Assembly: GCA_902560625.1 (NCBI GenBank)
Contig: CACEMD010000001.1
Location: forward strand, 124,001-188,000
Source of the DNA: an uncultured Pelagibacteraceae bacterium
Lineage (GTDB): Bacteria; Pseudomonadota; Alphaproteobacteria; Pelagibacterales; Pelagibacteraceae
Direction of reading: 5' to 3'
DNA: 64,000 bases
The notes below the pieces were generated by a model. That model searched no databases. It worked only from the letters and a program-made list of their open reading frames with translations, and was not told the DNA's origin. Shown in pieces: positions 44,369 through 54,088 of this stretch (the stretch's first letter is position 1; every line of letters begins with the position of its first letter). Both the position numbers and the translations under genes were made by a program.

Positions 44369-46915
44369 ATGAAAAAAATAGTGATTACAGGGGGACTTGG
44401 GTATATAGGCACAGAGTTATGTAAAATCTATTCTGGCTATAGTTGGAACGATAAGATTACTGTAATTGATAATAGATTTATATCTGAAAGAGTTAATCAA
44501 ATAAGAAATTGGAATATGAATTTTGTTCATGGGGACATTTTAGATAAAGATTTAATTAAGAAATATTGTCATGATGCAGATATCGTTCACCACTTAGCAG
44601 GGATCACCTCAGTACCAAGAGTTAGTAGTGAAGCTAATTCTGATAAAGAAAAGTTAATTGAAGAGGTTGCAGTAGATGGAACTCGAAATATCTTAGAAGT
44701 TATTAGCGATAATTGTAAAATTATTTTACCATCAAGTCATGTAGTTTATGAAAGCATGAATGAAGTAAAAAAAAATATTAATGAAAATGAGGAAACTTGC
44801 CCACGACTCTCATATGGAAAATCAAAAGACTATAATGAAAAACAACTGAAAAATTCAGGTAAAAATTATATCATTTTAAGACTAGGTTCTGTTTATGGTT
44901 ATTCATCAGACGCAACTAGATTAGACATTATGACAAATTTATTTTCAAAAATAACATCTCAAAACGGAACATTAAAACTTTATGCAGGTGGCAGACAAAT
45001 TAAAAGCCTCGTACCGGTAATTGATGTTGCAAGGTGTTTTAAGTTTATGGAAGAAAGAGAAAATATATCTAAAGAACTTTTTAATGTTACCAAAGATACT
45101 ATTGCAGTTAAAGATGTTGCTGAAATATGCAAAAAATATAATCCAAAAGTTCAATTGAAAGAGACAAATGACGAGGTTCCTAACCTAGGTTTTTCATTAT
45201 CTAATCAAAAATTACTAAGAACAGGATTTAAATTTCTTTATGCATTAGACGAAAGTATTAATGAAATGATATTTAAGTGGTCAAAACAAAATTTAATTAA
45301 AGATTTAGAATATGTACGCGACGGCACAGATGAGTTTAAAGACAGTAGAGGCAAAATAAGTAATTTTCAACTAACAGAACCAATTAATATGGTTGGTTTG
45401 ATAGATTCTAAGAGAGGAACTATAAGAGCCAATCACTATCATCCTCAACAAGAGCAAAAATGTCTTTTTACTAAAGGACAAATAATTGAAATCTTTCAAG
45501 ATATAATTAACCCTAACTCACCAAAGATTACGCAGGTTGTAAATGCTGGTCAAATTTCTGTTATAAAACCAAATGTTGCGCATACAATGGTATTTACAAA
45601 AGATACAACCTTTTTAAACTTGGTAAGAGGAGAGAGAGAACATGATAATTATGGAATTACTCACACAATAAAACATGTTTTCGTTGACGAAAATGAAAAA
45701 AATCTTTTATTAAGTTGTTATAAATATGAATGTAGATCCTGTGGAAATGAAAATTTAAAAAGAGTAGTTTCATTAGGATATCAGCCACTTGCAAACAATC
45801 TACTTAAAAAGAAAGACGAAAAAACAGAATTATATCCATTAGAATTAAATTATTGTGGTAAATGCCATAACTGTCAGTTGTCTGTTGCAGTAGATCCAAA
45901 AAAGATGTTTTTAAATTATTTGTATACATCCTCTACATCTAAAGTTTTTAGAGATCATTTCGTTGCTGCTTCAAAGAAATATATTAAAGAACTAAAGCTT
46001 AAGCCTCAGAAATCATATATAATTGATATTGGCAGTAATGATGGTGTAGCATTAAAACCTTTTAAAGATCAAAAATTTAAAAATCTATTAGGTATTGAAC
46101 CAGCGAAAAATTTAGCAAAACTTGCAAATAAAAATAAAATAAAAACATTTAACGGTTTTTTAGAAAAGAAAAATATCAAAAGAATAAAAAAAAATGCTGA
46201 CTTAATACTAGCATCTAATGTTTTTGCGCACTCTGATAATTTAAAAGAAATGGCACAATGTATGATAGATGTTTTACATCCTAAAGGAACTATAATAATA
46301 GAAGTACAATATCTTATGAATACTTTGAAAGATTTAACGTTTGATAATATTTACCATGAGCATTATAATTATTGGTCACTAACTTCCTTAATAAACTTCT
46401 TCAAACAGTTTGATGCAATTATTTACAAAGCAGAAAAAATTGATACACATGGTGGATCTATTAGAATTTATTTAAAAAAAGGTAAAAAATTTCAAATTGA
46501 AAGAAGTGTGAATAATTTAGTTAAAGAAGAAAATGAATTCGGCATTAAAAATTTTAAAACCTATCAAGATTTTGGTCAAAAAATTTATAAAATTAGAGAG
46601 AATACAATTAAAAATATCAACAAATTAAAAAAAGATAATAAAAAAATTGTTGGTTATGGATCTCCAGCTAAAGCTACAACTGCATTAAATTTTTTTGGAA
46701 TATCGAAAGAAATTGATTTTGTGATAGAGGACAATGCACTGAAACATGGTAAATTTATTCCAGGTGTTAATATCCCAATAAAGTCCAAAAAGAAAATCAC
46801 TGGGAAAATTGATAATCTAATAGTTTTAGCATGGAATTTTTTTGAGGATATAAAAAAAAACAACAGTCATTTAGCTAAAAATATTTTGAGTATTAAAGAT
46901 TTAGAAAATAAATAA
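44369..46915 (+). CDS. Three-domain nucleotide-sugar enzyme: NAD-dependent epimerase/dehydratase + cupin + SAM-dependent C-methyltransferase
   Basis: Single ORF; N-term VITGGLGYIGTELCKIY; middle RGTIRANHYHPQQEQKCLFTKGQIIEIFQD cupin; C-term CRSCG...YCGKCHNCQLS zinc motif, DIGSNDGVALK SAM motif and GYGSPAKATTALNFFGI...DNALKHGKFIPGVNIPI. Confidence 0.88.
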   Translation: MKKIVITGGLGYIGTELCKIYSGYSWNDKITVIDNRFISERVNQIRNWNMNFVHGDILDKDLIKKYCHDADIVHHLAGITSVPRVSSEANSDKEKLIEEVAVDGTRNILEVISDNCKIILPSSHVVYESMNEVKKNINENEETCPRLSYGKSKDYNEKQLKNSGKNYIILRLGSVYGYSSDATRLDIMTNLFSKITSQNGTLKLYAGGRQIKSLVPVIDVARCFKFMEERENISKELFNVTKDTIAVKDVAEICKKYNPKVQLKETNDEVPNLGFSLSNQKLLRTGFKFLYALDESINEMIFKWSKQNLIKDLEYVRDGTDEFKDSRGKISNFQLTEPINMVGLIDSKRGTIRANHYHPQQEQKCLFTKGQIIEIFQDIINPNSPKITQVVNAGQISVIKPNVAHTMVFTKDTTFLNLVRGEREHDNYGITHTIKHVFVDENEKNLLLSCYKYECRSCGNENLKRVVSLGYQPLANNLLKKKDEKTELYPLELNYCGKCHNCQLSVAVDPKKMFLNYLYTSSTSKVFRDHFVAASKKYIKELKLKPQKSYIIDIGSNDGVALKPFKDQKFKNLLGIEPAKNLAKLANKNKIKTFNGFLEKKNIKRIKKNADLILASNVFAHSDNLKEMAQCMIDVLHPKGTIIIEVQYLMNTLKDLTFDNIYHEHYNYWSLTSLINFFKQFDAIIYKAEKIDTHGGSIRIYLKKGKKFQIERSVNNLVKEENEFGIKNFKTYQDFGQKIYKIRENTIKNINKLKKDNKKIVGYGSPAKATTALNFFGISKEIDFVIEDNALKHGKFIPGVNIPIKSKKKITGKIDNLIVLAWNFFEDIKKNNSHLAKNILSIKDLENK

Positions 46916-46943: not shown

Positions 46944-47624
46944 ATGGAAAAAATTAAAATTATTATTATTACACCATCTTATAGAGTTCAAAACCTACCC
47001 AAAATATTTCAAAGTATAAATTTCGATTATATATTTAAATGGTTAATAATATATGATGGATCCAAAATATCACCAAATTTTAAACAATTTCAAGGTAATC
47101 AAAAAATTGTAGAATTAGTTTATAAATCTCTTGAGGGCGAAATACAAGGAAACGCTCAAAGAAATAAAGGACTTGATTATCTTAGTAAAAACTTTTCTGA
47201 CCAAAACATTTTTGTATATTTTTTAGATGACGACAATATAATAAATCCAAATTTTTATAAATTATTGAGTGAAATAAAAATTAATCATTTTTATACTTTT
47301 GACCAACAAAGAAATAGGTACGTTTTCTGCGGTGAAAATCCTAAAGTTTATCACATAGATTTAGGCATGTTTCTTTTTGATTTTAAATTAGTTAGCAATA
47401 TTAGATTTAGACTGGATAAATATGAAGCTGACGGTATGTATGTCGAAGAATGTTGCAACACAGATATAAAAAAACATATTTATGTTCCAAAAATTTATAA
47501 TTATTATAATTATTTAGGAAGAAATCTGTTAAGAAGAAGTTATTATAGACTTTTTTGGTTCATTAGACATTTTTTTTCAAATAAGCTTAAATTATTTAAA
47601 ATCATAAAACAAAAAAAACCATGA
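46944..47624 (+). CDS. Glycosyltransferase resembling GT43 (beta-glucuronyltransferase-type) motifs
   Basis: IIITPSYR...EGEIQGNAQRNKGLDYL...VYFLDDDNIINPNFYKLL. Confidence 0.65.
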   Translation: MEKIKIIIITPSYRVQNLPKIFQSINFDYIFKWLIIYDGSKISPNFKQFQGNQKIVELVYKSLEGEIQGNAQRNKGLDYLSKNFSDQNIFVYFLDDDNIINPNFYKLLSEIKINHFYTFDQQRNRYVFCGENPKVYHIDLGMFLFDFKLVSNIRFRLDKYEADGMYVEECCNTDIKKHIYVPKIYNYYNYLGRNLLRRSYYRLFWFIRHFFSNKLKLFKIIKQKKP

Positions 47625-47677
47625 TTAAATATTTGAAAGAAAAAATACATAGTAGTATATATCAGTGTGAATTTAAT

Positions 47678-47754
47678 GGCGGGGTAGCTCAGTTGGTTAG
47701 AGCGCGGGACTCATAAGCCCGAGGTCAGTGGTTCGATCCCACTTCCCGCTACCA
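47678..47754 (+). tRNA. tRNA with CAT anticodon (elongator Met or lysidine-type Ile), CCA encoded, copy 1
   Basis: GGCGGGGTAGCTCAGTTGGTTAGAGCGCGGGACTCATAAGCCCGAGGTCAGTGGTTCGATCCCACTTCCCGCTACCA folds as a cloverleaf. Confidence 0.95.
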
Positions 47755-47794
47755 TTTTATGAGGATATTTATTGTAATTGTATAAACTTAATAA

Positions 47795-48589
47795 ATGAAA
47801 AAATATTTTTTTACAATAACCGCAGGAAGAACAGGATCGAATTGGTTAGCAAATTTTATGTCTGCAAACCTTAAAACAAAAAGTATTCATGAGCCTTTGG
47901 AAATAAATGACTTTGGTCTAAAAATGCCTGATATTAAAATAATGCGCACATTTAATGATATTGGAAATAATATTTTAATTAAGAATTTTTGGAATAACAA
48001 ATTAAAATTGATTGAAAATGAAAATATTTATGTAGAAACTAATCATACTTTATCAAAATGCGGTTTAGTTGAAAATTTAGCAAATTCTAATATGTCGGAA
48101 AACAGTATACTTATTCTATTAAATAGAAATATTGTTGACCAATGTGTCAGTTATTTAACAAGACATGATTTTACAAATATTACAATTGTATGGCAATGGT
48201 ACTTACATACAAGTTATAAAAAAAAGATTGTAAATCCAGTACCTTTTGAAAAATTTGGAAATGCAGGGTTAGCTTTGTGGTATTGTTATGAAATGTTAGC
48301 TAGACAAGCTTATTACAAAAAACTTTTTAGTAAAAAAATTAAAATGATAGAGATAGATCTTGAGGATCTAAATTCAGAAAAGGGTGCAGAAAATTTTTTA
48401 AAAAACATAGGTATAATGAATAAATGTATTATTCCAAAAAAAACAAATCAAAACAAAAGAGTATTTTCCCAAAAACTATATGATGATATTGCTAAACTAG
48501 TGTCATCAGTTAAATTTAATGCAGAAGATATAGTAAATACAGCTTTGCAAAATGGGTTTACATTTGAAGAAAGCCAAAACGAATTATAA
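47795..48589 (+). CDS. Sulfotransferase-like (P-loop PAPS-type) protein
   Basis: FFTITAGRTGSNWLANFMSANLKTKSIHEP 5'-PSB-like motif; SILILLNRNIVDQCVSYLTRH 3'-PB-like segment. Confidence 0.75.
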   Translation: MKKYFFTITAGRTGSNWLANFMSANLKTKSIHEPLEINDFGLKMPDIKIMRTFNDIGNNILIKNFWNNKLKLIENENIYVETNHTLSKCGLVENLANSNMSENSILILLNRNIVDQCVSYLTRHDFTNITIVWQWYLHTSYKKKIVNPVPFEKFGNAGLALWYCYEMLARQAYYKKLFSKKIKMIEIDLEDLNSEKGAENFLKNIGIMNKCIIPKKTNQNKRVFSQKLYDDIAKLVSSVKFNAEDIVNTALQNGFTFEESQNEL

Positions 48590-48671
48590 TAATCTGTAAT
48601 AAAAACTGTTTAAAGCAGTATTGTTTATTGGATCAGAAATAAAAAGTATCATATATCATTACAAATTAGTT

Positions 48672-48748
48672 TGCGGGGTAGCTCAGTTGGTTAGAGCGCG
48701 GGACTCATAAGCCCGAGGTCAGTGGTTCGATCCCACTTCCCGCTACCA
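48672..48748 (+). tRNA. tRNA with CAT anticodon, copy 2 (identical to copy 1 from position 2 to CCA)
   Basis: 76-nt exact match to 47679-47754; position 1 is T instead of G. Confidence 0.93.
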
Positions 48749-48753
48749 AGATT

Positions 48754-49623
48754 TTATAAAATAATCTTTTTTAAATAATTTGAATACTCGCAATTCCCAT
48801 AAAATTTTATAGAATTTAAAATATCTTTTTTCCCAATCCATTTATTGTTAAAGGCTATTTCTTCCAAGCAAGCTATTTTAAGTCCTTGTCGTTTTTCAAT
48901 ATTTGAAACAAAAGCAGAAGTATTATAAAAATCTTCAATTGAGCCTGTATCTAACCACGCGCCACCTCTTCCAATGAATTCAGCACTTAGTTTATTTTTT
49001 TTTCTATATTTATTCAATAAGTCGGTTATTTCTAACTCACCTCTTTTTGATGGCTTAAGTTTCTTTGAGTATTTGACAACATTTTTATCAAAAAAATAAA
49101 ACCCTGTAATTGCTAAATCAGAAAAAAATTTTTTTGGTTTTTCTTTAATACTTAAGATTTTATTTTTATTTTTAATTTTGGCAACACCGAATAATTCTGG
49201 TTTAGAAACTTTATGCAGAATTACTTTAGCCCCATTTTTAATATTGATACAATTTTTTAGTGTATTTGACAAAGATTGACCATAAAAAAAATTATCCCCT
49301 AAAATTAATGCAACATTGTTTTTATTAATAAATTTTTCACCAAGAAGGAAAGCATCAGGTAATCCCTTTGGATATAATTGTTCCTTATATGCAATATTAA
49401 TTCCCAAATTTTTTCCATCTGGTAATAATTTTTTGTACTGATTAAGTTGACCTTTATTTACAATAATAAGAATATCTTTAATTTTTGCCAGCATAAGAAT
49501 TGATAGAGGATAATAAATAAGAGGTTTGTCATAGATAGGTAAAAGCTGTTTATTAACTGCCTTAGTTATTGGACTCATTCTTGTACCCATTCCACCAGAT
49601 AAAATAATTGCTTTTTTAATCAA
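48754..49623 (-). CDS. rfbA: Glucose-1-phosphate thymidylyltransferase
   Basis: KKAIILSGGMGTRMSPITKAVNKQLLPIYDKPLIYYPLSILMLAKI; LILGDNFFYG. Confidence 0.95.
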   Translation of the reverse strand: MIKKAIILSGGMGTRMSPITKAVNKQLLPIYDKPLIYYPLSILMLAKIKDILIIVNKGQLNQYKKLLPDGKNLGINIAYKEQLYPKGLPDAFLLGEKFINKNNVALILGDNFFYGQSLSNTLKNCINIKNGAKVILHKVSKPELFGVAKIKNKNKILSIKEKPKKFFSDLAITGFYFFDKNVVKYSKKLKPSKRGELEITDLLNKYRKKNKLSAEFIGRGGAWLDTGSIEDFYNTSAFVSNIEKRQGLKIACLEEIAFNNKWIGKKDILNSIKFYGNCEYSNYLKKIIL

Positions 49624-50696: not shown

Positions 50697-51587
50697 ATGG
50701 ATAAAAAACTATCAGATTTAACAATCATTATTGTAACTTTTAGAACAAATATTTCTATTTTAAAAGATTGCTTAAAATCAATTGACCCATCTGTAAAAGT
50801 TTTAATAGTAGAGAATTCAGATAATTTTATTAATTCAGAGGAAATTAAAAAAAATTTTAATAATGTAAATATTTTATGTACAGGATCAAATTTAGGAATG
50901 GGGGGTGGAAATAATTTTGGATTAGAAAAAGTTAAAACGAATTTTTCTTTAATTTTAAACCCAGATATAATATGTGAAAAAAATTTTTTTGAAAATATAA
51001 TACAATACCTTAATGATGAATTTGAGTACTCTATAATAGGCTCTCAATATCTTGATAATACAATTTGGAAACCAGCTGGATTCTTTTCAAAAAAAAAAAA
51101 TATTGATATTAAATTTGATAAACATTTAACCAAAGTAGATTGGGTAGTTGGTTGCTCGATGTTGATTAATTTGAAAAAATTTAAAACTAAAAAAATTTTT
51201 GATGAAAATTTTTTCTTATTTTTTGAAGAATTTGATCTATGCAAAAGAACTTTAATCAATGGGAATTTAATTTATTCTTCAAACAAACTTCTAGTTAAAC
51301 ATCTTGGATTTAAAGGATCATTTGCATCAGATGCAAAATATGAAATTGATGCATTAAAGTTAAAAAACTGGCATTATATGTGGTCTCAATTTTATTTTAA
51401 TAAGAAATACGAAGGAATTTTTATTTCTTATATCAAAGGACTGGCAAGTTTATTAAAAAATTCTATTAAAATATTATTTAATGTTATTACAAATAATAAA
51501 TTAGAGACTATAAAATATAAATTTAGATTCTCTGGATTATTAAGCTCTATGCTTTCAAAAAAATCTTCTTTTAGAATTAATTTTTAA
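50697..51587 (+). CDS. Glycosyltransferase family 2 protein
   Basis: LTIIIVTFRTNISILKDCLKSI; GSNLGMGGGNNFGLEKVKTNFSLILNPDI; FFLFFEEFDLCKR. Confidence 0.88.
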   Translation: MDKKLSDLTIIIVTFRTNISILKDCLKSIDPSVKVLIVENSDNFINSEEIKKNFNNVNILCTGSNLGMGGGNNFGLEKVKTNFSLILNPDIICEKNFFENIIQYLNDEFEYSIIGSQYLDNTIWKPAGFFSKKKNIDIKFDKHLTKVDWVVGCSMLINLKKFKTKKIFDENFFLFFEEFDLCKRTLINGNLIYSSNKLLVKHLGFKGSFASDAKYEIDALKLKNWHYMWSQFYFNKKYEGIFISYIKGLASLLKNSIKILFNVITNNKLETIKYKFRFSGLLSSMLSKKSSFRINF

Positions 51588-52111
51588 TGACCAGGAAAAT
51601 CCATTAAATTTTCTACTTTGTATCCTTTTTCAATTAATTTATTGCAACCACCAAGATCAAATAAATTAATTACAAAAATAAAAGCTGATACATTTCCATT
51701 CGATATTTCCACAAGTTTTGCAGCTGCTTCAGCTGTTCCGCCAGTAGCTATTAAATCATCTATAATTAAAATATTATCATTTTTCTTTATTGAATCTTTG
51801 TGAATCTCAATTGTTGCTGTTCCGTATTCTAATTCAAAATTTACACTGTGTGTATCCGCAGGAAGTTTATTTTTTTTCCTTAGCATTATGAATGGTTTCT
51901 TTAAAATGTATGAGACAGCGGATGCAAACACAAAACCACGAGACTCAATTGCTGCAATTTTATCAATTTCAAATTTTTCAGACTTTTTTACAATCAAATC
52001 AATTGTTTTTGAAAATGCTTTTTCATCTTTAATAAGCGTTGTTATATCTCTAAACAAAATTCCCTTTTTTGGATAGTCGGGTATTGATCTAATATATTCT
52101 TTTAAATCCAT
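51584..52111 (-). CDS. apt: Adenine phosphoribosyltransferase
   Basis: IRSIPDYPKKGILFRDITTLIKD; AAIESRGFVFASAVSYIL; NILIIDDLIATGGTAEAA. Confidence 0.96.
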   Translation of the reverse strand: MDLKEYIRSIPDYPKKGILFRDITTLIKDEKAFSKTIDLIVKKSEKFEIDKIAAIESRGFVFASAVSYILKKPFIMLRKKNKLPADTHSVNFELEYGTATIEIHKDSIKKNDNILIIDDLIATGGTAEAAAKLVEISNGNVSAFIFVINLFDLGGCNKLIEKGYKVENLMDFPGH

Positions 52112-53021: not shown

Positions 53022-54088
53022 AAATTGAAGGTAAAGAATATAGTACTATTTGGTTTGAAAATAATATTGTAAAAATTATTGATCAAACAAAACTTCCACA
53101 TCAATTTGTTATTAAAGATCTTAAAACAGTTAAAGATGTAATAAATGCAATTAAAGCAATGGAGGTAAGAGGTGCTCCACTAATAGGAGCCACGGCTGCT
53201 TATGGTTTGGTTCTTTCAATTATTGAAAATAACGATCAATCTTTTCTAAATAAATCTGCAAATAATTTAATTAATTCAAGGCCAACAGCAATTAACTTAA
53301 AATGGGCAGTGGATAGAATGATAAAAAAACTGTCAGGTGTAAATAGTGAAAAAATTTTACACATTGCTTTAAACGAAGCGAATAGCATTTGTGAAGAAGA
53401 TGTAAATTTTTGTAAAAATATCGGATTAAATGGCCTTAAGATAATTGAGGAAATTTATAATAAAAAAAAAGATACAGTTAATATTTTAACTCATTGCAAT
53501 GCTGGATGGCTTGCAACAATAAATTGGGGTACAGCAACCTCACCTATTTATCATGCACATAAAAAAGGTATCCCAGTTCATATTTGGGCTGATGAAACAA
53601 GACCAAGAAACCAAGGTGCTAATCTTACATCTTATGAGTTAAACGAAGAGGGAATTAAAAATACGATTATTGCTGACAACACTGGTGGAATTTTAATGCA
53701 AAGAGGGGAGGTTGATATGTGCATTGTTGGGACAGACAGAACGTTAGCTAGTGGAGATGTTTGTAATAAAGTTGGAACCTATTTAAAAGCTTTAGCTGCC
53801 CATGATAATAATATTCCTTTTTATGTTGCGCTACCTAGTTCAACAATTGATTGGAATATAAAAAAAGCTAAAGATATTCCTATAGAAGAAAGAAATTCTG
53901 AAGAGTTATCACAAATAGAAGGAATGGATGAAAATGGAAATTTTAAAAAAGTGAAAATTTATCCAAAAAAAAGTAAATCTTTAAATTTAGCTTTTGATGT
54001 AACTCCAGCTAAATATATAACCGCTTTAATTACAGAAAAAGGAATTTGCAACGCATCAGAAGAGGAGTTAAGTAAATTATTTAAATGA
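53018..54088 (+). CDS. mtnA: S-methyl-5-thioribose-1-phosphate isomerase
   Basis: AIKAMEVRGAPLIGATAAYGLVLS; HCNAGWLATINWGTATSPIYHAHKKGIPVHIWADETRPRNQGANLT. Confidence 0.95.
   Translation: MKIEGKEYSTIWFENNIVKIIDQTKLPHQFVIKDLKTVKDVINAIKAMEVRGAPLIGATAAYGLVLSIIENNDQSFLNKSANNLINSRPTAINLKWAVDRMIKKLSGVNSEKILHIALNEANSICEEDVNFCKNIGLNGLKIIEEIYNKKKDTVNILTHCNAGWLATINWGTATSPIYHAHKKGIPVHIWADETRPRNQGANLTSYELNEEGIKNTIIADNTGGILMQRGEVDMCIVGTDRTLASGDVCNKVGTYLKALAAHDNNIPFYVALPSSTIDWNIKKAKDIPIEERNSEELSQIEGMDENGNFKKVKIYPKKSKSLNLAFDVTPAKYITALITEKGICNASEEELSKLFK

Follow-up and report, generated by a model that had tools for sequence, protein, structure and literature searches.

A private sulfotransferase-like gene between two complete tRNA-Met genes at an apparent insertion hot spot of a SAR11-like genus

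SAR11 bacteria, whose genomes are very small, rank among the commonest cells of the surface ocean, and the route by which they gain or swap single genes is an open question. The 64,000-nucleotide stretch analysed here (the window) comes from the draft genome of an uncultured Pelagibacteraceae bacterium (1.07 Mb in 26 contigs, 88% complete, GC 29.6%), where it lies within a 218-kb contig, and raises that question at one locus: how did a single sulfotransferase-like gene come to lie between two near-identical tRNA genes, with glycan genes on both sides? Gene content, genome size and GC suggest that the bacterium belongs to SAR11. A reading of the sequence alone had taken the arrangement as a trace of island insertion or tandem duplication, and had proposed a hot spot where cassettes could be swapped by recombination between the tRNA copies. 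The features of the locus are as follows.

46944..47624, + strand: glycosyltransferase-like gene, 226 aa, left of T1; role guessed from context, no Pfam match
47630..47677, + strand: 5′ flank of T1, promoter-like, of a type common in the genus (flank comparison with relatives)
47678..47754, + strand: T1, tRNA-Met(CAT) copy 1, complete with CCA, G at position 1 (ARAGORN, sequence comparison)
47755..47794, + strand: T1–ORF junction, 40 bp, without arm-type repeat (sequence, repeat search)
47795..48589, + strand: P-loop sulfotransferase-like ORF, 264 aa (ORF call, weak PF00685 match, homologues)
48602..48626, + strand: possible weak terminator hairpin 3′ of the ORF, ACTG-TTTAAAG-CAGT then ATTGTTT (by eye)
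48624..48671, + strand: 5′ flank of T2, promoter-like and plainly of the tRNA-Met kind, from a lineage other than that of T1; closest to G192, G020, G157 and G109 (flank comparison)
48672..48748, + strand: T2, tRNA-Met(CAT) copy 2, complete with CCA, T at position 1 (U1.U72) (ARAGORN, sequence comparison)
48754..49623, − strand: rmlA-like nucleotidyltransferase, right of T2 (Pfam, comparison with the sister species G297)
51584..52111, − strand: apt, which in relatives marks the conserved right-hand limit of the variable stretch (Pfam, relatives' loci)

According to ARAGORN the window contains two tRNAs and no others; they lie at 47678-47754 and 48672-48748, both on the + strand and both called tRNA-Met(cat), a label that does not separate elongator Met from CAU-reading Ile tRNA. 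The two genes are spaced 994 bp apart in direct orientation, each complete with an encoded CCA; nucleotides 2-77 (76 nt including CCA) are identical, and the sole difference is at position 1, G in T1 and T in T2. The initial description of two tRNA(CAT) genes sharing 76 bases in direct orientation is therefore borne out. Across the fetched loci, position 1 is G in 138 other exact tRNA copies and T in T2 alone, which gives T2 a predicted U1.U72 mismatch, and hence no 1-72 pair, where the other copies have G.U. The anticodon stem shared by both copies apparently contains an A31.G39 mismatch (by eye). Both copies are called as tRNAs and possess CCA and a promoter-like flank, consistent with a functional pair. 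Among 201 genomes of the genus (the relatives' being drafts, one per species), the 76-nt query gave one strong match per genome among the matches listed, very often identical; two exact copies occur in the window genome only, and a second near-full copy was found in none of the others. Since most related species have these 76 nt without any change, the identity of T1 and T2 gives no age and no proof of a recent tandem duplication, a conclusion that we therefore reject as drawn from identity; the conservation points to strong selection on the tRNA body, and the identical copies may be old. It is the presence of two copies that is unusual, not their identity.

The cargo is equally restricted in distribution. 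One 264-aa ORF lies between the tRNAs, as had been claimed, and its sulfotransferase-like character rests on a retained P-loop and a weak match to Sulfotransfer_1 (PF00685; E 9e-4, 19.2 bits against a curated gathering cut-off of 22). Homologues in marine Rhodobacteraceae and in G602, which belongs to the same genus, share 43-53% identity with it and have the same P-loop residues. NCBIfam gave no match, and a PDB search nothing significant. The ORF was rejected as a phage gene: at the sensitivity used, neither IMG/VR nor cultured phages yielded a match, and PHROGs had none. No homologue was found in the other 200 of the 201 genus genomes searched. The 53% homologue in G602 occupies another locus, among conserved genes that lie more than 10 kb to the right in the window, and no tRNA was found in the 19 kb examined around it; G602 was consequently rejected as a donor carrying the ORF beside tRNA-Met. 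Nor was a tRNA found near the homologues of Rhodobacteraceae and of a Flavobacteriaceae MAG contig, and among the homologue loci examined no donor had the order ORF-tRNA or tRNA-ORF. To the left of the pair, at 44369-46915, the window also encodes an 848-aa protein fusing an NAD-dependent epimerase and a C-methyltransferase (Methyltransf_13, Methyltransf_14), and the DNA of this gene is 77-78% identical in loci L136 and L155.

The same tRNA in related species provides an opportunity to place the pair in context. In 40 long relative loci, tRNA-Met lies within a variable stretch left of apt-mtnP-mtnA, and its right neighbour is often rmlA, apt or a glycan gene that starts or ends no more than ~100 bp away, which shows that there are empty alleles. 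In a pooled count, 130 loci have a single tRNA copy and 25 relatives (~16% of ~155) have more, with 28 copy-to-copy intervals among them; the last 19 loci of this count were picked for likeness to the T2 flank, and the less biased first survey gave 19/~137. The 28 bracketed segments are small (0.55-5.5 kb), often single genes and sometimes tandem, and are bounded by partial tRNA-Met copies in two arrangements. In type A, one cassette or two come after a full tRNA, and a 3′ tRNA fragment (nt 23-30 to nt 76) closes each of them; in type B, a 5′ tRNA fragment (nt 1 to 54-62) precedes the cassette, which brings the promoter of the full tRNA that follows. Direct repeats of 6-10 nt spaced 11 bp (for example TGGTCCACTG, TGATCACAC, TGACACAC, TGCTCCAAT and TGCGTC) occur at the left end of 24/28 intervals and in 5/260 control flanks, four of these five looking like scars of such elements; similarly spaced repeats occur at the right end of 13/28 intervals. 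These repeats resemble arm-type integrase sites and may function as such, and all exact matches of two arm patterns in the 201 whole genomes fall at the tRNA-Met locus. Integrase genes are absent from most of the cassettes. Elements in G187 and G222 carry a tyrosine integrase of 328-329 aa with a primase or helicase-like gene, and the integrase-bearing element of G187 has end sequences in common with the integrase-free cassette of G077, which suggests movement of cassettes in trans.

Several further observations concern these cassettes. In four loci (L096 of G089, L058, L102 and L138), repeats of phage type or B2 type lie immediately upstream of a single tRNA-Met and look like scars left by elements since lost. 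Cassettes of type B2 (L062, L072, L130, L203, L214) have in common, at their right end and irrespective of cargo, a conserved 55-aa ORF (MKIIIQSIKNYFKSKKDRGLEPVFFEKIGDQ...); it has no Pfam or PHROG match and is possibly an accessory recombination factor. Cargo proteins of L045, L084, L085, L128 and L202 begin with a near-identical signal peptide (MKKLLGIVVLGLLL...) and are otherwise different, as if new coding regions had been joined to one leader. The B2 cassettes of L203 (G298) and L130 (G008) encode a 1090-aa ResIII/DEAD helicase protein and an HNH endonuclease protein, a possible phage-defence cargo.

The sister species G297 allows the most direct comparison. From tRNA nt 26 as far as position 53941, a stretch comprising the rmlA-like gene and its right neighbours, its identity with the window is 95.8%, and left of its tRNA it has a gene 79% identical to the left gene of the window, followed by a methyltransferase-like stretch between that gene and the tRNA (by eye). 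Between its full tRNA and rmlA lies a 2.1-kb type A cassette with cargo other than the window's. G297 is thus an alternative-cargo allele at the place of insertion in the window. The sequence-only reading had expected of a hot spot that some strains would have one tRNA and no ORF, and others different cargo; both kinds were found, the former in several relatives where the tRNA is directly followed by rmlA or apt, the latter in relatives with other cargo beside partial tRNA copies, including G297 at the same spot. The order at this tRNA therefore varies, and no relative examined has a tRNA-ORF-tRNA arrangement carrying the window's ORF.

Phage-like sequences carry this tRNA as well. The exact 47-nt 3′ part of tRNA-Met occurs in three IMG/VR contigs (L225, L226, L227), each with a tRNA-Met copy that is full-length and slightly altered ahead of the anticodon loop. 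A 424-aa tyrosine integrase lies directly beside the tRNA in two of them (L225, L227; L226 was examined over 755 bases), and the same integrase and gene order occur directly 3′ of tRNA-Met in G393 (L204), apparently as a prophage. In G089, a phage-type flank lies directly upstream of the single tRNA with an older promoter further up, an arrangement that looks like a scar. The only cultured-phage match to the 424-aa integrase is in Pelagibacter phage HTVC028P, at 24% identity, and no exact attP junction patterns of type A and B elements were found in IMG/VR. The tRNA-Met copies in the phage contigs are putative attachment sites. Since full-length sites probably exist, a pair of full tRNAs is a possible product of integration.

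The window's cassette shares its position with type A and B cassettes, at the conserved tRNA-Met between glycan genes and apt. However, neither tRNA of the window pair is a partial copy, both spanning nt 1-76 in full, and no 11-bp-spaced arm repeats were found at the cassette. Between the copies (47755-48671) there is neither an integrase nor an arm repeat, nor any phage gene by PHROGs, so the pair falls outside both types; assignment to type A or B was rejected on tRNA extent and the missing arm repeats. A prophage or satellite with its own integrase was likewise rejected, as the bracketed segment encodes no tyrosine integrase. PF00589 has a single match in the window genome, a 325-aa protein on contig C4 and probably XerC/D, which together with the single ORF between the tRNAs upholds the earlier statement that no integrase is visible.

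The flanks of the two tRNAs had been said to differ, which is only partly so: similarity extends ~36 nt 5′ of the tRNA, giving a 112-nt repeat of 89% identity overall, because both copies carry a tRNA promoter. The T2 flank is clearly related to those of relatives (mean score 11.5, against 4.4 ± 1.3 for the shuffled T2 flank). Over the ~48 bp compared, T1 and T2 score 11.4 with each other, T1 reaches 38.8 with its best match and T2 28.0 with its own. On these ~48 bp, the two promoters appear to be of different lineages, each nearer to other lineages than to the other. The divergence speaks against T2 having been copied recently from T1, and in favour of two alleles having been joined. Most species pairs with 94-97% identical right flanks have a common promoter (score 30-48); a few do not, including the pair of the window genome (G000) and G297. 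Scores against G297 are 6.2 for T1 and 14.2 for T2, with a background mean of about 12. As neither promoter is clearly orthologous to that of G297, the native and the incoming copy are not safely separable.

Our leading explanation, held with about as much confidence as doubt, is that recombination inserted the ORF and, along with it, a second complete tRNA-Met allele at a hot spot, the window preserving the trace of a one-off event. It is based on two full copies, promoters of different lineages, private cargo, empty and alternative-cargo alleles, and the absence of integrase-type ends. A diverged allele of this locus would have supplied the sulfotransferase-like gene along with a second complete tRNA-Met and its promoter. 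The most likely route is recombination, either homologous or homology-assisted, anchored in the conserved 76-nt tRNA and leaving two full tRNA alleles as a direct repeat with one cargo gene between them. A single crossover alone would be insufficient; the T1–ORF junction would require a circular intermediate or a second, illegitimate join. We infer the recombination route, the direction of transfer and any later excision or exchange between T1 and T2 from the present arrangement rather than from observed events.

Of the other readings, the one we rank next, though we consider it improbable, is that the pair is the relic of an integrase-driven element with a complete tRNA-Met attachment site, reduced by later deletion to one cargo gene. 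Integration at a full site would give host promoter, full tRNA, element, element flank, full tRNA and host flank, as in the window; the three IMG/VR contigs with full-length tRNA-Met (two with the adjoining 424-aa tyrosine integrase), and the same integrase with its neighbour genes 3′ of tRNA-Met in G393, indicate a candidate agent, and type B elements, like T2, come with a tRNA promoter of their own. Yet the cassette has no integrase, phage gene or 11-bp-spaced arm repeat, its cargo was not detected in IMG/VR or in cultured phages at the search sensitivity applied, and the T2 flank is like the chromosomal promoters of the genus and unlike the phage flank. An old tandem duplication of tRNA-Met and its promoter, with the ORF inserted later and the tRNA bodies held by selection while the flanks drifted, seems a little less probable again. 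The invariance of the tRNA body in most species makes identity compatible with great age, and both promoters are still recognisable, but the T2 promoter is nearer to other lineages than to T1, no other relative searched keeps two full copies, and the ORF is private to the window genome (not in the other 200). We rank last, as doubtful, an assembly or amplification artefact in which strain variants or amplification products were joined at the 76-nt repeat. The genome is indeed a draft (26 contigs, 88% complete), and a repeat common to all strains can mislead assemblers; however, both tRNA–ORF junctions lie inside the 218-kb contig and differ from each other, and jumping from one repeat to the other would simply lose the ORF rather than make a second copy with another promoter and a private base at position 1.

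Whichever event produced the pair, comparison of the relatives' sequences indicates that, in this SAR11-like genus, insertion and recombination have recurred at the tRNA-Met that separates the surface-glycan genes from apt-mtnP-mtnA. The hot spot proposed initially is thus supported as a locus, by empty alleles and by other cargo in relatives including G297, but not in its engine: in most relatives the cassettes have what appear to be integrase-type ends, namely a partial tRNA repeat and 11-bp-spaced arm-like repeats, and not two complete tRNAs. In a flank-swap comparison, swapping at the tRNA was not clearly commoner than at mtnP or apt, and one-sided sharing was common everywhere. A broader and speculative view, which we consider unlikely as a whole, would make the SAR11 tRNA-Met a cassette platform: integrases of phages or satellites, acting in trans, would place tiny units, mostly without integrase, to the left or right of the tRNA, recombination through the tRNA would exchange them, and the window would represent a third kind of unit with a complete expressed tRNA as its own anchor. 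In about one-sixth of the species examined, a fixed tRNA landing site is in use, for the most part by cassettes that lack an integrase and in a few cases by elements that encode one. Such a mixed site makes it testable which integrase moves which cassette, and whether whole-tRNA repeats exchange cargo.

A literature search, mostly outside subscription papers, found no account of a tRNA-Met cassette site in SAR11, and related systems are known. In SAR11 itself, the available part of one study places surface-glycan genes and an integrase gene in the variable region HVR2 and tRNAs at the borders of HVR4, finds no integron sites, and proposes exchange by homologous recombination at conserved 23S and 5S RNA genes (PMC2217521). 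The locus described here is alike in having surface-glycan genes in a variable region and a conserved RNA gene as proposed exchange anchor, and unlike in that the anchors named for HVR2 in that part are rRNA genes, with no tRNA-Met cassette site described there. Tycheposons, known from Prochlorococcus and reported in Methylophilaceae at tRNA-Met(cat), are 4-200 kb long and carry a tyrosine recombinase (PMC10872708). They are likewise tRNA-anchored cargo carriers with tRNA-Met(cat) as a border; compared by description only, most cassettes here differ in their size of 0.55-4 kb and their lack of an integrase, and the window's 994-bp unit without recombinase was rejected as a tycheposon on the same grounds. 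Integrative elements in tRNA genes (prophages, phage satellites and genomic islands) similarly produce direct tRNA repeats around cargo at a tRNA gene. The relatives' locus resembles them in its partial tRNA repeats, paired arm-like repeats and occasional tyrosine integrases, whereas in the window both tRNAs are complete, each has a promoter of its own, and the cassette lacks an integrase and arm repeats. Finally, 'Ca. Methylopumilus' has additive flexible genomic islands beside tRNA-Lys with recurring repeats of the tRNA end (PMC10872708); the tRNA-Met locus shares recurring partial repeats beside one tRNA with variable cargo, and is distinguished by having both 3′-type and 5′-type repeats at a single tRNA, in another bacterial group.
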